Shown here: positions 11,195 to 62,746 of the stretch, in pieces
How the letters are laid out: every line of letters starts with the position of its first letter
How positions within the stretch are numbered: position 1 is the first letter of the stretch
Origin: Sinomicrobium soli
Lineage (GTDB): Bacteria; Bacteroidota; Bacteroidia; Flavobacteriales; Flavobacteriaceae
Assembly (NCBI RefSeq): GCF_003285545.1
Contig: NZ_QLNV01000003.1
Location: forward strand, 248,001 to 312,000
DNA: 64,000 nt
Direction: 5' to 3'
The notes under the pieces: generated by a model
The model's input: the letters and a program-made list of their open reading frames with translations, nothing else
The model's database searches: none
Told to the model about the DNA's origin: nothing
Made by a program: the position numbers and the translations under genes

Positions 11195-12502
11195 TTAACT
11201 ATCGCACAACACAACCCGGAGTATATTTCCGGTATCCGGCGCTACCTTGAAACGATCGTCCAGCCGGTGTCCTACTATCCATACGATATCCTTTCCCGAG
11301 CACAACAGCCAGGTATCTTCCTTATCGAATACCGAAAACCTCTCATCCTTAAAGAACTTGCTCACTTTCTTTCGGTTAGTCATCCCCAGCGGATAAAAGT
11401 AATCCCCTTTTTCCCATTTCCTCAAAACGAGCGGGTACTTTAACTTATCTTTATCAATCATTGCCGTATTCGCCGACGATTTTCCGGTAGCTTCTCCCTC
11501 GAGAAACTGCAGGTGGACCGGGGTAAAGATCTCCCTGGTCCCCGGTGGGATCTCGTACTGTCGTTTTTCTCTCTCTTTTTGTGGGGTTATGATCAGCTCC
11601 TCCCTGTTTTTCAGCATGACATACTTGTCCGAAACAATGAATTTTCCGGACATGGCATACAGAAGCTTGCGTATTTCATCGACCGGAAAATCAAATTCCC
11701 TGAAAAGGTAGTACAGGTAGGTTTCCTTCGGGTCGAGGGCCTTGAGATCATCGACGGCAACCGTCCACCGTTCCCCCTTCCTGAAAAACACCCGGTCTCT
11801 CACTGCGTCCATATGTCCTTCCAGTATCTGCTCACACTCCCGCAGGTGCCGCTGGGTACGGCCGAACTGTTCCAGGAACCCCTGCGAAAGCTGTTTCAGC
11901 TCCGGCACTACCCGGTGCCTTATCCTGTTTCTCAGGTATTTGGTATCCGCATTGCTGCCGTCTTCCCGCCATGTCCATCCGTTTTCCTGCAAATAACCGA
12001 AAAGCTGTTCCCTTGAAAACGGAAGGAGCGGCCTTGCGATCTTTCCGTTTACTGCCGGGATCCCGGCCAGTCCCTCTATTCCCGTACCCCTTGAAAGGTT
12101 GATCAGGAAGGTTTCCAGCATATCGTCGGCATGATGGGCAGTGAGCAGGTAATCGTACCCTTCGGCATCCAGCACTTTTCCGAACCAGTCATAGCGCAGT
12201 TCCCGGGCTGCGATCTGTATCGATATTCCCCGGGCCGCCGCATATTCCTCCGTCCGGAACGAGGTGGTAAAAACCGGTACGCCGAGTTCTTCCGCCAATG
12301 CCCTTACAAAATCTTCGTCCCCGTTACTGTCCTCTCCCCTGAGATGAAAGTTACAATGTACCAGAGCCATCTTCAGCCCTGCCGTATGGCACAACCTCGC
12401 CAGGACCACACTGTCGATGCCCCCGCTGACGGCCACCAACAGCCCCGCCTCTTCCAGAAAAGGAAAACTGTTTCTGATATGCTCCTTAAACCATGCTAAC
12501 AT
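11195..12502 (-). CDS. tilS: tRNA(Ile)-lysidine synthase
   Basis: Attaches lysine to C34 of the CAU-anticodon tRNA(Ile), changing both codon reading and charging; essential in most bacteria. The chosen start gives 435 residues, beginning MLAWFKEHIRNSFPF. The ATP-pyrophosphatase loop SGGIDS lies at 26-31, followed by HCNFHLRGEDS and the LTAHHADDMLETFLINL block. The C-terminal TilS domain is present. An in-frame ATG at 12533-12535 would add 11 residues, but it overlaps a likely promoter element (12533-12540), so the downstream start is preferred. Length is normal for the family. Confidence 0.95.
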   Translation of the reverse strand: MLAWFKEHIRNSFPFLEEAGLLVAVSGGIDSVVLARLCHTAGLKMALVHCNFHLRGEDSNGDEDFVRALAEELGVPVFTTSFRTEEYAAARGISIQIAARELRYDWFGKVLDAEGYDYLLTAHHADDMLETFLINLSRGTGIEGLAGIPAVNGKIARPLLPFSREQLFGYLQENGWTWREDGSNADTKYLRNRIRHRVVPELKQLSQGFLEQFGRTQRHLRECEQILEGHMDAVRDRVFFRKGERWTVAVDDLKALDPKETYLYYLFREFDFPVDEIRKLLYAMSGKFIVSDKYVMLKNREELIITPQKEREKRQYEIPPGTREIFTPVHLQFLEGEATGKSSANTAMIDKDKLKYPLVLRKWEKGDYFYPLGMTNRKKVSKFFKDERFSVFDKEDTWLLCSGKDIVWIVGHRLDDRFKVAPDTGNILRVVLCDS

Positions 12503-12737: not shown

Positions 12738-12781
12738 CACAACTAAGAACTAAAAAACTACGAACTAAGAACTAAAAAACC
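12738..12781 (+). repeat. AACTAAG-type tandem array with an 18-bp direct repeat
   Basis: The 18-bp word AACTAAGAACTAAAAAAC occurs twice without change, at 12741-12758 and 12763-12780, separated by TACG. It belongs to the same low-complexity family as the arrays at 5935, 16515 and 63738. It ends just past the pabB stop codon (pabB runs on the minus strand). Confidence 0.75.
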
Positions 12782-15194: not shown

Positions 15195-16391
15195 ATGAAA
15201 AAACTCGTTTTGGCCTACAGTGGCGGACTGGACACTTCCTATTGTGCCAAATACCTGTCTCAGGAAAAGGGATATGAAGTACATGCCGTAAGTGTGAATA
15301 CCGGTGGGTTTACCGCGGAAGAGAAAAAGGAGATCGAAGAAAAAGCCGTGAAACTGGGCGTAGCCAGCTACACCAATATCGAGGCCAGGGATACTTTCTA
15401 CAAGGACGTGGTAAAATACCTCATCTTTGGCAATATCCTCAAAAACAACACTTACCCGCTCTCGGTCAGTGCCGAAAGGATCGTTCAGGCGATAGAAATT
15501 GTAAACTACGCCAAAAAGATCGGGGCGCAATATATTGCACATGGCAGTACCGGTGCCGGTAACGACCAGGTGCGGTTCGACATGATCTTCCAGATCCTGG
15601 CCCCGGAAATAGAGATCATAACGCCCATCCGCGACGAACAGCTCGCCCGGCAGGACGAAATTGCATACCTGCAAAAAAACGGGGTCGACATGTCGTGGGA
15701 AAAGGCGAAATACTCCATCAACCGCGGCTTGTGGGGCACCAGTGTAGGCGGCGAGGAAACCCTTACCTCCCACCGGTCACTCCCCGAAGAAGCCTATCCG
15801 AGCCAGCTTGAAAAAGAAGGTTCCCGGCAGGTAAAACTGAGCTTCCGGAAAGGTGAACTCGTAGCCATAGACGACAAGGAAGATACCCCGGTAAACAATA
15901 TAGAACTCCTGAACAGCATAGCTTCTGCCTATGCCATAGGGCGTGACATACATGTAGGGGATACCATTATCGGGATCAAGGGAAGGGTTGGTTTTGAAGC
16001 CGCTGCCCCCCTGGTCATTATAAAGGCCCACCATACCCTCGAAAAACACGTCCTTACCAAATGGCAGCAACACCACAAGGAATACCTGGCCAACTGGTAC
16101 GGAATGCTGTTGCACGAAGGGCAGTACCTGGACGAAGTGATGCGAAACATAGAAACGTTCCTCGCCGACACGCAAAAAAATGTTACCGGCGATGTATTTG
16201 TCACCCTTGCTCCCTACCGCTTTGTGATAGACGGCATACAATCGGAGCACGACCTGATGAACGCTTCCTTCGGCAGCTATGGAGAAATGAACAAAGGCTG
16301 GACCGCAGAAGATGCCAAAGGGTTTATCAAGCTCAACGCCAATCAGAACAAGATCTATCACCACGTCAATCAAAACAGTTCAGAGTTATGA
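15195..16391 (+). CDS. argG: Argininosuccinate synthase
   Basis: Joins citrulline and aspartate with ATP to give argininosuccinate, the next-to-last step of arginine synthesis. The 398 residues start with the PP-loop motif LVLAYSGGLDTSYCAKYL and contain IAHGSTGAGNDQVRFD and the NRGLWGTSVGGEE block, all typical of ArgG. Length is normal. The final codons GAG TTA TGA are formed by a GAGTTAT tandem repeat: the stop codon spans two units (16383-16396). This suggests that the repeat has shaped the gene's end. The substrate citrulline comes from deacylation of N-acyl-citrulline by the argE product of the same operon. Confidence 0.96.
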   Translation: MKKLVLAYSGGLDTSYCAKYLSQEKGYEVHAVSVNTGGFTAEEKKEIEEKAVKLGVASYTNIEARDTFYKDVVKYLIFGNILKNNTYPLSVSAERIVQAIEIVNYAKKIGAQYIAHGSTGAGNDQVRFDMIFQILAPEIEIITPIRDEQLARQDEIAYLQKNGVDMSWEKAKYSINRGLWGTSVGGEETLTSHRSLPEEAYPSQLEKEGSRQVKLSFRKGELVAIDDKEDTPVNNIELLNSIASAYAIGRDIHVGDTIIGIKGRVGFEAAAPLVIIKAHHTLEKHVLTKWQQHHKEYLANWYGMLLHEGQYLDEVMRNIETFLADTQKNVTGDVFVTLAPYRFVIDGIQSEHDLMNASFGSYGEMNKGWTAEDAKGFIKLNANQNKIYHHVNQNSSEL

Positions 16392-16427
16392 GTTATGGGT
16401 TCAAATCATAAACTACAAACTACGAAA
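16383..16427 (+). repeat. 7-bp array overlapping the argG stop codon
   Basis: GAGTTAT at 16383-16389 and 16390-16396 is followed by GGGTTCA, then after a short gap by AACTACA and AACTACG. The first half has the opposite polarity to the second, as in the other head-to-head arrays of this window. The argG stop codon TGA is bases 16389-16391. Confidence 0.65.
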
Positions 16428-16429
16428 TG

Positions 16430-16509
16430 GCCGAAAGTCCGGAGTCGGAAGTTGTCATCCAGACCGAAGTGCCTGTCGGACCAGGCGGGAGTTTTGCTCA
16501 GAATGACAA
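16430..16509 (+). repeat. Dispersed palindromic repeat, copy 2
   Basis: Bases 16430-16466 match 5857-5893 at 34 of 37 positions. The element closes with an inverted end: TTGTCAT (16452-16458) pairs with ATGACAA (16503-16509), and an inner stem GCCTG (16471-16475) pairs with CAGGC (16482-16486). Read backwards, the right end gives TTGTCATTCTGAGC, the core of a repeat class common in Bacteroidota. Confidence 0.78.
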
Positions 16510-16514
16510 TAACA

Positions 16515-16541
16515 GACTAAGAACTAACAAACTAAACTACT
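16515..16541 (+). repeat. 7-bp array abutting the argC start codon
   Basis: GACTAAG, AACTAAC, AAACTAA and a partial unit follow with a 7-base period and end at the base before the argC ATG. Same family as 5935 and 63738. Confidence 0.7.
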
Positions 16542-18341: not shown

Positions 18342-18347
18342 TTGTAT

Positions 18348-18426
18348 AGATGTGAGATTATAGATTTTAGATATGAGATGTAGTTTAAAATCTAAAATCT
18401 CACGTCTAAAATCTCATATCTAAAAC
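18348..18426 (+). repeat. Head-to-head 7-bp arrays between proC and argD
   Basis: Left arm: AGATGTG, AGATTAT, AGATTTT, AGATATG and AGATGTA, five 7-base units from 18348 to 18382. Right arm: CTAAAAT, CTCACGT, CTAAAAT, CTCATAT and CTAAAAC from 18392 to 18426. The arms are inverted copies, with a perfect 15-bp inverted match between 18365-18379 and 18411-18425, so the transcript can form a long AU-rich hairpin. It ends about ten bases before the argD start codon. Confidence 0.8.
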
Positions 18427-18436
18427 CTATAAAAAA

Positions 18437-21373: not shown

Positions 21374-21424
21374 CGCGGAGTAACTGCAAAGATGATCTCA
21401 CTAAAAGATATAAATGAAATTAAC

Positions 21425-22483
21425 ATGACAGACCAACTCACACCATCAGCCATTGCCCTTTTAAAACAACTGATCGGTACTCCTTCCTTTTCGTCGGAAG
21501 AAGACAGGACGGCGGCGCTCATAGAAAGCTGGCTGGAATCGCATGGTATTCCCTATCAGCGAAAGGACAATAACGTATATGCCTTTAACAAATATTTCGG
21601 GGAAGGAAAGCCCACACTGCTGCTCAACTCCCACCACGATACCGTAAGGCCCAACAGCGCTTATACCAAAGACCCTTTTGACGCACATATCGAAGACGGG
21701 AAACTGTTCGGGCTGGGAAGCAACGACGCAGGAGGGTGCCTGGTGTCGCTGCTGGCAACTTTCGTCCATTTTTACGACAAGCCCCTCAATTACAACCTGG
21801 TCATCGTGGCCTCGGCAGAGGAGGAAAGTTCCGGGGACAAAGGGCTGAACAGCATGATTCCCGTACTGCCGCACATCGATGTGGCCATTGTGGGAGAACC
21901 TACCCTGATGCAACTGGCCGTTGCGGAAAAAGGGCTCGTCGTTTTCGACGCCGTGGTTAAAGGTACTCCCAGCCATGCCGCACATCCCAACGACAACAAT
22001 TCCATTTACAACACCATCAGGGTACTGGAATGGTTCCGCGATTACCGGTTTGAAAAAGTCTCCGATGCCCTGGGCGAAGTAAAGATGACAGTGACCCAGA
22101 TCAATGCCGGCAAGCAGCACAATGTCGTTCCGGCGGAGACCGGCCTGGTGATCGATGTACGGGTAAACGACAGGTATACCAACCGGGAAATTGCAGACCT
22201 GCTGCAGGCACAATCGCCCTGTGATATTATTACGCCCCGGTCGTTACGCCTCAATTCATCCTCCATTCCGGAAGATCATCCCCTCGTACAGGCCGGGATT
22301 GCCCTGGGCAGGGAAACATACGGTTCCCCCACCCTTTCAGACCAGGCCGTGCTGACGTGCCCGTCCCTGAAATTAGGCCCCGGAGACTCGACACGATCGC
22401 ATTCGGCCGACGAGTTTATTTATGTGCGGGAGATCGAGGAAGGGATCCGGTTATATGTTCAATTGTTGGAAAAAGTATTGTAG
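21425..22483 (+). CDS. argE: N-acyl-ornithine/citrulline deacylase (M20 family)
   Basis: A zinc-dependent M20 amidohydrolase of the ArgE/DapE group. In this operon it should free citrulline from N-acyl-citrulline. The 352 residues have the metal ligands in LLLNSHHDTVRPNS, GLGSNDAGGC, ASAEEESSGDKG, VGEPT and HSADEF, with the catalytic pair Glu-Glu in AEEE. An in-frame ATG at 21392 would add 11 residues; the shorter form is preferred because MTDQLTPSAIALL fits the family N-terminus. No argJ is present, so the route is linear. The stop codon is followed at once by an inverted 8-bp array. Confidence 0.92.
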   Translation: MTDQLTPSAIALLKQLIGTPSFSSEEDRTAALIESWLESHGIPYQRKDNNVYAFNKYFGEGKPTLLLNSHHDTVRPNSAYTKDPFDAHIEDGKLFGLGSNDAGGCLVSLLATFVHFYDKPLNYNLVIVASAEEESSGDKGLNSMIPVLPHIDVAIVGEPTLMQLAVAEKGLVVFDAVVKGTPSHAAHPNDNNSIYNTIRVLEWFRDYRFEKVSDALGEVKMTVTQINAGKQHNVVPAETGLVIDVRVNDRYTNREIADLLQAQSPCDIITPRSLRLNSSSIPEDHPLVQAGIALGRETYGSPTLSDQAVLTCPSLKLGPGDSTRSHSADEFIYVREIEEGIRLYVQLLEKVL

Positions 22484-22484
22484 A

Positions 22485-22508
22485 GTTAATAGGTTATTGA
22501 GTTATTTA
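22485..22508 (+). repeat. 8-bp array, left flank of the S23-type gene
   Basis: GTTAATAG, GTTATTGA and GTTATTTA follow with an 8-base period, starting two bases after the argE stop codon. The units are the inverse of the AATAACYY units on the other side of the S23-type gene (22990-23045). Confidence 0.7.
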
Positions 22509-22581
22509 GTCGACGTACAATAATCTTATTTAAACCGTATATTTAAACCCTAACTGATGTTAATTTACAAAACATTAAATT

Positions 22582-22959
22582 ATGGGTTATCAAACTTTTG
22601 AAGACTTGGAGGTGTGGAAATTAGCACGGCAGCTCAAAAAGGATATCCGGAAATTAACCCGTGAATTTCCTGCAGAGGAAAAATACAGGCTTACAGACCA
22701 GGTGATCCGTAGCAGCAGATCAATAGGTTCAAATATTTCTGAGGGTTTTGGAAGATTTCATTATAAAGAAAATTCAAAGTTCTGCCGCAATGCAAGAGGA
22801 AGTCTGATGGAAACCCTGAGTCATTTGATAGACGCATTTGATGAAGAATATATAAATGAACAAACCCTATCCAGATATAAAATACAGATACTGCACTGTA
22901 ACAAGGTTCTCAATGGTTATATTGCCTACCTTAACAAACGCAGTATGGATAATCAGTAG
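22582..22959 (+). CDS. Four-helix-bundle protein, S23 / 23S rRNA intervening-sequence type
   Basis: A 125-residue, all-helical protein starting MGYQTFEDLEVWKLARQLKKDI, with VIRSSRSIGSNISEGFGR, the signature of the S23 family. These proteins were first found encoded within insertions in 23S rRNA genes and form pentameric bundles; their role is unknown. Here the gene is not in an rRNA but inside the arginine operon, between argE and argH. Its base composition is clearly more A+T rich than that of its neighbours, and it is flanked by inverted copies of an 8-bp array (22485-22508 and 22990-23045). This looks like a transferred cassette. No link to arginine synthesis is expected. Confidence 0.93.
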   Translation: MGYQTFEDLEVWKLARQLKKDIRKLTREFPAEEKYRLTDQVIRSSRSIGSNISEGFGRFHYKENSKFCRNARGSLMETLSHLIDAFDEEYINEQTLSRYKIQILHCNKVLNGYIAYLNKRSMDNQ

Positions 22960-22989
22960 TATCGTTATCAGGTTATCGAAGGCAATCCC

Positions 22990-23045
22990 AATAACTTAAT
23001 AACCCAATAACCCAATAACCCAATAACTTAATAACTTAATAACCA
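22990..23045 (+). repeat. AATAACYY array (7 units of 8 bp) ending at the argH start codon
   Basis: Seven units with a strict 8-base period: AATAACTT, three AATAACCC, two AATAACTT and AATAACCA. The last base is 23045 and the argH ATG begins at 23046. The array would form the whole region just before argH and contains no Shine-Dalgarno sequence. Confidence 0.9.
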
Positions 23046-24323
23046 ATGAAACTCTGGGACAAAGGCTTTAGCACCGACAAGAAAATAGATCACTTTACCG
23101 TAGGAAACGACAGGGAACTCGACCTGCTTCTGGCGAAATACGATGTTATCGCATCTGCGGCACATGCCCGTATGCTGGGCAAGATCGGTTTGCTTACCGA
23201 AGAAGAGGTTACGCAACTGACCGGGGAACTCGATCGTATAGGAGAAGATATCGAGGCCGGTACATTTACCATAGAAGACAGCTTCGAAGACATGCATTCC
23301 AGGATCGAGTACCTGCTCATTCAGAAGCTGGGCGATACGGGAAAAAAAATACATACGGCACGTTCCCGGAACGACCAGGTACTGGTAGCCATGCACCTCT
23401 ACCTGAAAAACGAATTACAGGAGATCAGACAGGACACTGTGGCCCTGTTTAACCTGTTAATGGAACTGGCCGGGAAATACAGCGGTATACTCCTCCCCGG
23501 CTATACTCATTTACAGATTGCCATGCCTTCCTCCTTCGGGCTCTGGTTTTCCGCCTATGCAGAAAGCCTGATAGACGATCTGTACTTTATCGATGCTGCC
23601 TATAAAGTAGCCGACCAGAACCCGCTCGGAAGTGCGGCAGGTTACGGGAGTTCCTTTCCCATAGACCGTACTTACACTACGAAAGAACTCGGTTTCGGTA
23701 CGATGAAATACAATGTAGTCGCCGCACAGATGGGGCGGGGCAAAGTGGAAAAGAGTACTGCATTCGGACTGGCAGGTATAGCAGCCACCTTATCCAAAAT
23801 GGCTATGGATGTATGCCTTTACATGAGCCAGAATTTCAATTTTGTCTCCTTCCCTGACGAACTCACTACCGGAAGCAGTATCATGCCCCATAAGAAGAAC
23901 CCGGACGTTTTTGAACTTATCCGCGGAAAGTGCAACAAGATACAGGCCGTACCCAACCAGCTCACCCTTATCACCAACAACCTCCCCAGCGGATATCACC
24001 GCGACCTGCAACTGGTCAAGGAAGTAATCGTACCCGCTATACAGGACCTGAAAGCCTGCCTGGAGATGGCTGCATTTACACTGAAAGATATCCGTGTCAA
24101 CAAAGGTATTCTCGAAGATCCGAGATACGACTATCTCTTTAGTGTAGATACCCTGAACGAACTGGTACAATCGGGCATGCCCTTCCGCGACGCCTATAAG
24201 AAGATGGGGATGGAGATCGCCAACGGAAATTTCAAACCGAAAAAGGATATTCATCATACCCATGAAGGGAGCCTGGGGAACCTCTGCCTGGATGCGATCA
24301 GGAAGAAAATGGACCAGGTATGA
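23046..24323 (+). CDS. argH: Argininosuccinate lyase
   Basis: Splits argininosuccinate into arginine and fumarate, the last step. The 425 residues show the fumarase/aspartase-superfamily signature GSSIMPHKKN (276-285) and the motifs HTARSRNDQV, LPGYTHLQIAMPSS and NPLGSAAGYG. At 425 it is shorter than the E. coli enzyme (457), as is common in this phylum. Its start codon abuts the 8-bp array exactly. The S23-type gene separates it from the rest of the operon, so its expression may depend on read-through of that insert. Confidence 0.96.
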   Translation: MKLWDKGFSTDKKIDHFTVGNDRELDLLLAKYDVIASAAHARMLGKIGLLTEEEVTQLTGELDRIGEDIEAGTFTIEDSFEDMHSRIEYLLIQKLGDTGKKIHTARSRNDQVLVAMHLYLKNELQEIRQDTVALFNLLMELAGKYSGILLPGYTHLQIAMPSSFGLWFSAYAESLIDDLYFIDAAYKVADQNPLGSAAGYGSSFPIDRTYTTKELGFGTMKYNVVAAQMGRGKVEKSTAFGLAGIAATLSKMAMDVCLYMSQNFNFVSFPDELTTGSSIMPHKKNPDVFELIRGKCNKIQAVPNQLTLITNNLPSGYHRDLQLVKEVIVPAIQDLKACLEMAAFTLKDIRVNKGILEDPRYDYLFSVDTLNELVQSGMPFRDAYKKMGMEIANGNFKPKKDIHHTHEGSLGNLCLDAIRKKMDQV

Positions 24324-30417: not shown

Positions 30418-30516
30418 GATTATTAAGTTATTTGGTTATTAGGTTAATAAGTTATTAAGGTAAGACACATAAACTCAATAACCCAGTAACTTATTAACCT
30501 AATAACCCGTTAAACC
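30418..30516. repeat. Head-to-head 8-bp arrays (GTTATT / AATAAC)
   Basis: Left arm: GATTATTA, AGTTATTT, GGTTATTA, GGTTAATA and AGTTATTA (30418-30457). Right arm: AATAACCC, AGTAACTT, ATTAACCT, AATAACCC and GTTAAACC (30477-30516). The arms are inverse copies: bases 30434-30454 and 30487-30507 form a perfect 21-bp inverted match. The gap between arms is about 16-19 bases. The units are those that flank the S23-type gene at 22485 and 22990. Confidence 0.85.
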
Positions 30517-61500: not shown

Positions 61501-62646
61501 GATATACTGAAGATCAGGATCAGCAATACCGGGTCGGTCATCAGCAAGAAGGAGATCGACCAGATCTTTAACTGGTATTACCGATCGGGCAACAGCATCA
61601 GGAAAAACGGTACGGGAATAGGCCTGGCCCTTTCCAAAAGGTTTGCAGAGCTCCACCACGGATATATTACGGTAAACAGCGGGGAAAACGATATTACCGA
61701 ATTTACCTTATGCCTGCCGCGTGATGTGAAATACAGCGATCACGATGTCCGTATGATCGATACACGACCGGCAGAACAGGCAGAACATACCGTGTTTAAG
61801 GACAGTTTCTCCCTCACCCCCGCCTCCGGAGACAAGATCATTCAGCCTTCGGGGAACAGGGATGTGATCCTGCTGATCGACGACAATCCCGAAATACTGG
61901 AATTCCTGGACAGCATCATGAAATCTGACTACGACATCATTCATGCCACAGACGGTAACGATGGTGTAGCCAAAGCGATCAAGTACATCCCGAACCTGAT
62001 CATATCCGACGTGATGATGCCCTTTAAGGACGGTATGGATCTGTGTACTACACTGAAAAAACATATCAGCACCAGCCATATTCCCATTATACTGCTTACC
62101 GCCAAAAGCAATCCGGAAAGTATAAACACGGGCTTCGAAGAAGGGGCCGATGCCTATATGACGAAACCCTTTCATCCGAAGATCCTCAGGACAAGGGTCA
62201 GGAACCTGTTGCAAAACCGGCTTAAACTGCAATCGTATTTTCTGGGGAATGCGGCTAACGACCCTTCCGGTACCGGAACCATCCCTTCAAAAGGCCTTAC
62301 CCGGGAAAAACAGTTCCTGAAAAAGATGGAAGACCTGATCCTGGGGCAATCGGAAAACAGCAAGGTCAATACTGCTTTCCTGGTTGCGGAAATAGGCATG
62401 AGCCGTACGTCCCTGTACCGCAAGATAAAGGCGCTCACCGGGCAGAATATCAACGAATTCATCCGCGATGTAAAACTACAAAGAGCCGCAATGCTCATCC
62501 GGAATGGAAATTATTCCGTCAGCGAGGCTTCCTATGAGGTGGGTTTTAACAGTTTAAAATATTTCAGGAAGGTCTTCAAGGAAAAATACGGGACCACCCC
62601 GGTTAAATTCAGGTCGGGAGAATTGCCGGAAAATGAGGAGGTGTGA
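58534..62646 (+). CDS. Hybrid two-component sensor kinase/AraC-type regulator (HTCS)
   Basis: One 1370-residue chain that senses a glycan in the periplasm and activates the locus. Order: signal (1-22); two propellers of Reg_prop repeats (about 35-690, many copies of W-I-G-T-x-x-G-L, e.g. GFIWIGTEDGLNRFDG); Y_Y_Y domain (about 735-790); one membrane helix (about 797-817); histidine kinase with His854 in GFSHELKTP; ATPase domain with NNLISNAIKYG and NGTGIGLALSKRF; receiver with Asp1116, Asp1117 and phosphoacceptor Asp1159 in IISDVMMP; AraC-type HTH (about 1255-1365). In the ATPase G1 box the usual Asp is Asn (SNTGSV). Divergent from susC. The TGA stop codon is the first part of an 8-bp array. 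Confidence 0.95.
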   Translation: MIKNKLEILLVFLLFWKLSFSQQKDVSEHIPDDLYFHLVNVNSGLSNNVINDMIQDSLGFIWIGTEDGLNRFDGTNFRVFKQKVKNRQEGLANNFVQSLLLQNGHTILVGTDGGLNTYDTRSEQLKLTDRNKGLLDNSVSKLFSVTGRKTAIGIYRGGIQFLDRDGALEETDTTLNNTLSSDEVSAITMQGDSVLWIGTFAHGLNKADYRNRQVTDTLIPENSALASSSVNSLYTDRENNIWIGTRNGLTVITAKGDTINIGKSVSADQGLSDNDILCFREDGKGRIWIGTRNGGLNIMETASVLKNESSLKNRWFLPATDGTSVYNRTVSSILRDHNGNMWLGTPTGLNYVNPRGEPVHSIRRHDGLAQTISHERVGALALSSGDKIWIGTDGGGLDLLDPETQTYTHFRHRPGHDSGLSNNYILSLLEDSRNRLWAGTYRGGINKMKNGQDTFSHYLRGAPEDGSDVRVIFEAGDRRIWAGTNRGGLYYYDEGDDIFRYVSNLGKIDIRDIEEDHDHNLWLATFGSGIIRYDPRSGERIYFNTETISELPGNIFFCILPVDGETVLAGSRYGGLVRLNPRTRQTTGITEQDGLSNNSITALIRENERYVWLSTFNGINRYDIQTGSILNISSMNNILQGGFNIGAATRSSDGVVYMGGNDGINYFDPEGFSGPARKYPLIFEGLRVLNTDVKVDTNSTLKQSLAFTDHLRLNYNQNTFSIDFAVLKYPVSHHITYSYKLEGYNNFWIDTRGVGTANFTELDPGEYRLTVRINAPYNENAEKSLLITIVPPFWKTWPAYLLYLLAAGMLIWISIKYYTERLRLRNSLIFEKKQRQLENDLNEERLRFFTGFSHELKTPLTLISAPVDHLLENVKQKELVDNLLLVKQNTQTLHNAITKLLEFRKTEEGLSQLTLGTYHMEEKVRKWTLNYIPLARDKKIDLQQAVPESDTLLQCDIEKIEVIFNNLISNAIKYGKRKGIVKAEFISEDDILKIRISNTGSVISKKEIDQIFNWYYRSGNSIRKNGTGIGLALSKRFAELHHGYITVNSGENDITEFTLCLPRDVKYSDHDVRMIDTRPAEQAEHTVFKDSFSLTPASGDKIIQPSGNRDVILLIDDNPEILEFLDSIMKSDYDIIHATDGNDGVAKAIKYIPNLIISDVMMPFKDGMDLCTTLKKHISTSHIPIILLTAKSNPESINTGFEEGADAYMTKPFHPKILRTRVRNLLQNRLKLQSYFLGNAANDPSGTGTIPSKGLTREKQFLKKMEDLILGQSENSKVNTAFLVAEIGMSRTSLYRKIKALTGQNINEFIRDVKLQRAAMLIRNGNYSVSEASYEVGFNSLKYFRKVFKEKYGTTPVKFRSGELPENEEV

Positions 62647-62707
62647 TAATGTGATAATGTGATAATGTGTCAATGTGCCAATGAGAGAATGTGTTAATGG
62701 GAGGATG
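62644..62707 (+). repeat. 8-bp array starting in the stop codon of the hybrid regulator
   Basis: Three TGATAATG units (62644, 62652, 62660) are followed by TGTCAATG, TGCCAATG, AGAGAATG, TGTTAATG and GGAGGATG, eight units with an exact 8-base period. The first TGA is the stop codon of the regulator gene. It lies in the gap between convergent genes. Confidence 0.88.
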
Positions 62708-62746
62708 TTGTGGTCTGGGTGAATATCGGGCAAACCTGCGACTGCT

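Follow-up and report, generated by a model that had tools for sequence, protein, structure and literature searches.

S23 is a very common and uncharacterised protein family in the group of bacteria studied here, and the question of its function dates from the first descriptions of intervening sequences (IVSs) in rRNA genes. In Coxiella burnetii, according to the excerpts of PMC4990558, the IVS contains an S23 open reading frame in a stem that is cut by RNase III. Such insertions have complementary ends, are AT-rich and scattered in their distribution, and their mobility has been proposed before. S23 genes have also been reported in CPR rRNA insertions (excerpts of PMC11270868), between cas genes, in operons reported as CRISPR-associated (excerpts of PMC3936711), and between gmk and nadD in Flavobacterium columnare (excerpts of PMC5524665). 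The last two cases share with the locus described below the position of the gene between adjacent genes of an operon. Inverted tandem arrays around S23 genes are not mentioned in the excerpts of these four papers, and no report of them was found in the open-access papers searched, which does not prove novelty.

Other described systems share part of the layout. REP/REPIN elements are dispersed extragenic palindromes that match those beside one gene family, the RAYT genes, and gene and repeat co-vary. MITEs, including a MITE of P. gingivalis with an internal minisatellite (excerpts of PMC4596501), are small, have inverted ends and lack a transposase. The Avd protein of diversity-generating retroelements has a four-helix bundle fold, as is predicted for S23.

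The window, i.e. the whole stretch of 64,000 nucleotides analysed here, contains an argE-like M20 peptidase gene (21392-22483, PF01546/PF07687) and argH (23046-24323, PF00206), separated by 562 bp. In this gap lies a gene for an S23 (23S rRNA-intervening sequence) protein of 125 residues (22582-22959; PF05635, E=1.3e-32) with a tandem array on each side; genes and arms are all given on the forward strand. The left (5') arm (22485-22510) consists of GTTATTRR-type units and starts at 22484/22485, immediately after argE. Beside it, at 22507-22523, is a remnant of a palindrome centre (TAGTCGACGTACAATAA). The right (3') arm consists of AATAACYY units (22987-23043; 22987-23044 according to TRF) and stops two bases short of the argH ATG. 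When the left arm is aligned to the right arm in reverse complement, the match scores 16, a value seen in 0 of 2000 shuffles (mean 7.6). The GC content of the S23 gene is 38%, compared with 52% for argE and 49% for argH. An S23-type gene, richer in A+T than its neighbours and bracketed by inverted arrays of one unit that abut argE and argH, had been described in the first-pass annotation, and each part of that description is confirmed.

As in the rRNA IVSs, an S23 gene is here combined with complementary ends that can close a stem, judging from the arm pairing and the predicted fold. However, the host space is the one between two protein genes and not an rRNA gene; between positions 12000 and 32000 of the window there are no Rfam matches. 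In contrast to the IVS described in the excerpts of PMC4990558, the S23 elements found here end in short tandem arrays with lineage-specific units, have many dispersed copies that lack the gene, and carry an S23 gene under purifying selection. Unlike in an insertion sequence, no transposase was found between the arms, where S23 is the only gene and no other Pfam family matched. Compared with the MITEs in the excerpts of PMC4596501, the tandem arrays themselves are the ends, and the cargo form bears S23 rather than a transposase. Compared with REP/REPIN-RAYT systems, the flanked gene is S23 and not a Y1 transposase, the arms are built from tandem units of 7-8 bp or twice that length, and there are many units per genome. 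Finally, unlike in diversity-generating retroelements, neither a reverse transcriptase nor a template repeat adjoins the gene, whose neighbours are argE and argH.

The junction is usually free of S23: argE adjoins argH in 30 of 30 family genomes, with S23 between them in 3 and absent in 27. The S23-free gaps are mostly 2-100 bp long, and a few contain cargo-free arrays. Across all loci, three S23 lineages occupy this junction. An empty version in close relatives had been predicted, and it is present in the sister species G004, where a GTTATT palindrome without a gene separates argE from argH. S23 is also absent from the junction in G003 and G005 (a gap of 46 bp in the latter), and G001 and G002 have a different S23 gene with AACTCC-type arrays, so the gene is not fixed at this place among its relatives. 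The occupancies are independent. The commonest S23 site is upstream of a thiolase gene (38 loci, including L001, L045 and L054), and there G000, the genome of the window, and G005 have different S23 proteins with different arrays.

The G004 element aligns with the left flank of the window gene over 39 bp, through arm and centre, and with the right arm over 57 bp. The left flank thus corresponds to the left arm plus the centre and the right flank to the other arm, which places the S23 gene within the loop of one palindrome. The two alignments overlap by about 9 bp, indistinguishable from a repeat unit, and as the sister junctions are too divergent no target-site duplication is readable from them. 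The G004 element may be either a precursor of the filled form or a derivative that arose by deletion.

The layout is general. We compared the flanks of 129 S23 loci, a set drawn from the genus and the family together with 77 loci of named genomes, Clostridia and Treponema among them. In 71% of these loci the upstream flank is the inverted complement of the downstream one (score of at least 12), compared with 7.5% for 120 control genes of the same loci and 0.6% for shuffles (Fisher p=8e-27); 29% of the S23 loci fall under the threshold. The flanks are made of short tandem units that vary by S23 lineage and are common to similar S23 proteins. The second S23 gene of the genome (L001) and nearly all S23 genes of the five sister species have inverted tandem arrays, each with a unit of its own. 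A full palindrome in each single flank was ruled out, with a self-palindrome score of 7.3 against 6.8 in shuffled sequences; this again places the gene in the loop of one palindrome. When 2.45 Mb was scanned without bias for inverted arrays that enclose loops of 250-1600 bp, seven pairs were found, and four of the seven loops contain S23 (L001, L046, the window gene and a locus of G002, counted because it has the coordinates of the S23 gene with a truncated frame upstream of argH). Other genes between such arrays, which had been suggested as a search, therefore exist and are mainly S23 genes. Over all S23 arrays the strands are asymmetric: C is scarce in the 5' arm (7% C, 25% G), and G is scarce in the 3' arm.

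The repeat unit and the S23 protein are co-inherited. To keep out matches due to orthologous neighbours, the upstream arm of each locus was set against the downstream arm, in reverse complement, of a different locus. Array similarity rises with the identity of the S23 proteins (Mantel r=0.35, p=0.0005), with matching arrays in 68% of the S23 pairs that are at least 80% identical and in 0-0.3% of those under 45%. For pairs from different operons the trend is weaker: 26% match at 60-70% identity and 45% from 70% upwards, over a baseline of 0.8%. The nearest relatives of the window S23 are mostly located between sdhA and sdhB in other genera, and several of them (L219, L221, L227, L230) also have the GTTATT/AATAAC unit. 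The names sdhA, sdhB, fadJ and fadA are presumed from a reading of the protein ends.

Palindromes of these units that lack the gene are scattered over the genomes, in greatest number where the cognate S23 is present. In G000 three or more AATAACNN units are found at each of 30 loci, i.e. the many dispersed extragenic palindromes expected of a REP-like system. Most of them are compact, gene-free palindromes in which the inverted partner lies nearby and the centre is short (for example TAGTCAACACGC), and some cargo-free palindromes lie between convergent genes. A cargo-free palindrome at 30418-30516 of the window has the unit of the window arms, and the earlier view of it as the same structure without cargo is upheld. 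Among 37 palindromic arrays collected without reference to S23, 68% match S23 arms of the genus (score of at least 13), compared with 4% when shuffled and 11% for S23 arms from outside the genus. The assignment of palindromes to S23 arms of the same genome is weak (p=0.045), because the units are common to the whole genus.

Pattern counts for four unit families over the six whole genomes of the genus (G000-G005) each peak in a genome with a cognate S23. GTTATT-type matches number 48 in G000 (a pattern count; the 30 loci come from the looser AATAACNN pattern), 36 in G004 and 12 in G001; G002 and G003 have a single match each, and G005 has none. CTCACYTT has 45 matches in G005 and 0 in the five other genomes, CAATCTNNTATCAATCT has 38 in G005, 4 in G001 and 1 in G003, and AACTCC has 51 in G001 and 35 in G005. 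The units were picked from S23 loci, so some matches in the bearing genome are guaranteed, but tens at separate places are not. Arrays without a cognate S23 are seen for GTTATT in G001 and G004 and for AACTCC in G005, and G002 has the cognate S23 gene but no exact dispersed arrays.

S23 genes were found in 114 of 150 family genomes. They are under purifying selection (dN/dS 0.04-0.17), and their GC content is lower than that of the locus in 150 of 151 cases. Some copies have in-frame stops. The proteins are basic (median pI 8.7) and have no recognised catalytic domain. The predicted structure of the window protein (pLDDT 96) is a four-helix bundle with 2gsc and 2rld as top structural matches, followed by Avd (4dwl). 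Against Avd (4dwl, 8ub7) the TM-score is 0.7-0.78, with a weaker E-value than for 2gsc and 2rld, and the NCBIfam Avd profile gives a weak match for a relative.

The same layout surrounds most S23 relatives, with other repeat words and in other operons, and therefore looks like a widespread transposase-less mobile cassette. We consider it somewhat probable that the S23 gene, together with the inverted array on either side, is a single DNA cassette which spreads into the gaps between the genes of operons. This agrees with the earlier suggestion of a small cassette without transposase. The companion suggestion, that a repeat captured a gene, is not supported in the sense of a chance capture of something unrelated: S23 recurs as cargo across many genera and operons, and its sequence goes with the unit. 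By analogy, the layout is best read as RAYT/REP-like with miniature cargo-free derivatives. The inverted arrays would be the ends of the cassette, and the cargo-free palindromes miniature derivatives or precursors of the cassette with the matching unit. S23, as an Avd-like basic four-helix bundle, probably assists a separate enzyme, which would copy or move DNA that ends in the cognate array, as RAYT proteins serve REP palindromes. Transposition, an action of S23 on the arrays and the enzyme that does the chemistry are inferred. Several points speak against the cassette: the 29% of S23 loci under the threshold, the arrays without a cognate S23 gene and the missing exact arrays of G002, the weak assignment of palindromes within a genome, the lack of a readable target-site duplication and of a catalytic domain, and the S23 copies with in-frame stops. 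In addition, inside co-directional gene pairs 138 S23 genes are in sense and 1 in antisense orientation, which requires selection if insertion takes place at the DNA level. Probably the gene lacks its own promoter and is transcribed from the host operon, which would account for this orientation.

The main rival is an intervening sequence at the mRNA level, where base pairing between the arms in the operon mRNA would loop out the S23 frame and RNase III would cut the arms, as it does in rRNA IVSs; the insertion would then cost the host little. The Coxiella IVS, with its S23 frame in an RNase III-cut stem (excerpts of PMC4990558), offers a precedent, and the sense-only orientation agrees with this reading. 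The predicted RNA of 22470-23060 closes the S23 loop via the arms (z=-2.45). Moreover, arms at sdhA-sdhB co-vary between genera, with a score of 14.2 for own pairs and 10.2 for cross pairs (0 of 20000 permutations). However, the arm mismatches show no excess of G-U over A-C (125 against 150), and cargo-free palindromes also occur between convergent genes. The mismatch test thus lends no support to the idea that RNA pairing keeps the arms matched, and the missing G-U excess favours a process at the DNA level. We therefore prefer a DNA cassette that ends in the arrays and in which S23 assists an enzyme, and regard the mRNA reading as unlikely.

It also seems improbable that the arrays are ordinary minisatellites that grow by slippage, with hairpin-templated repair keeping the arms alike, homologous recombination between dispersed arrays shuffling S23 genes among sites, and S23 itself inert. 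The arrays are indeed dispersed and of short period, they lack a wobble signature, and their units turn over fast at one and the same junction. Yet they are specific to S23 and not to genes at large, the unit follows the S23 protein across different operons, and an inert gene is at odds with the purifying selection. That the palindromes belong to a Y1-transposase (RAYT-type) system with S23 as a passenger is very improbable: the dispersed palindromes are REP-like and 5 of the 6 genomes carry Y1 genes (two weak matches in G000), but G004 has no Y1 match and yet has GTTATT arrays at about 7 sites.

Pairing each S23 lineage with a repeat word provides a directly testable substrate. The pairing accounts for many short palindromic repeats in these genomes, and it suggests that rRNA IVSs, operon S23 genes and possibly Avd share one origin. 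More tentatively, genes of the S23/Avd fold may make up a class of mobile elements that lack a transposase and are widespread among Bacteroidota and among some Firmicutes and spirochaetes. Every protein lineage would recognise its own repeat word, use inverted arrays as ends, insert in sense between operon genes and drive cargo-free palindromes in trans, with rRNA IVSs and the S23 genes of cas operons as members.

The window contains further arrays at other junctions. At 18345-18432, before a gene starting MKLFDVYPL (probably argD), there is a cargo-free palindrome of TAGATNTGAG type that resembles the array of the second S23 gene (a moderate match to the L001 arm, score 12). In most sister species another short array occupies this junction, and in G003 and G005 it is of the type of an own-genome S23 array. 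Remnants of inverted short arrays lie at 16383-16535, upstream of a gene starting MIQAGIIG (probably argC), where G004 has a TTTGTAGTTTATGG palindrome. A short tandem array of AACTAAG type is found at 12741-12775 and is absent from the matching junction of G004. At 62642-62708 there is a tandem array of TGTGATAATG type, whose unit is similar to that of the S23 array L056 of the sister species G003.
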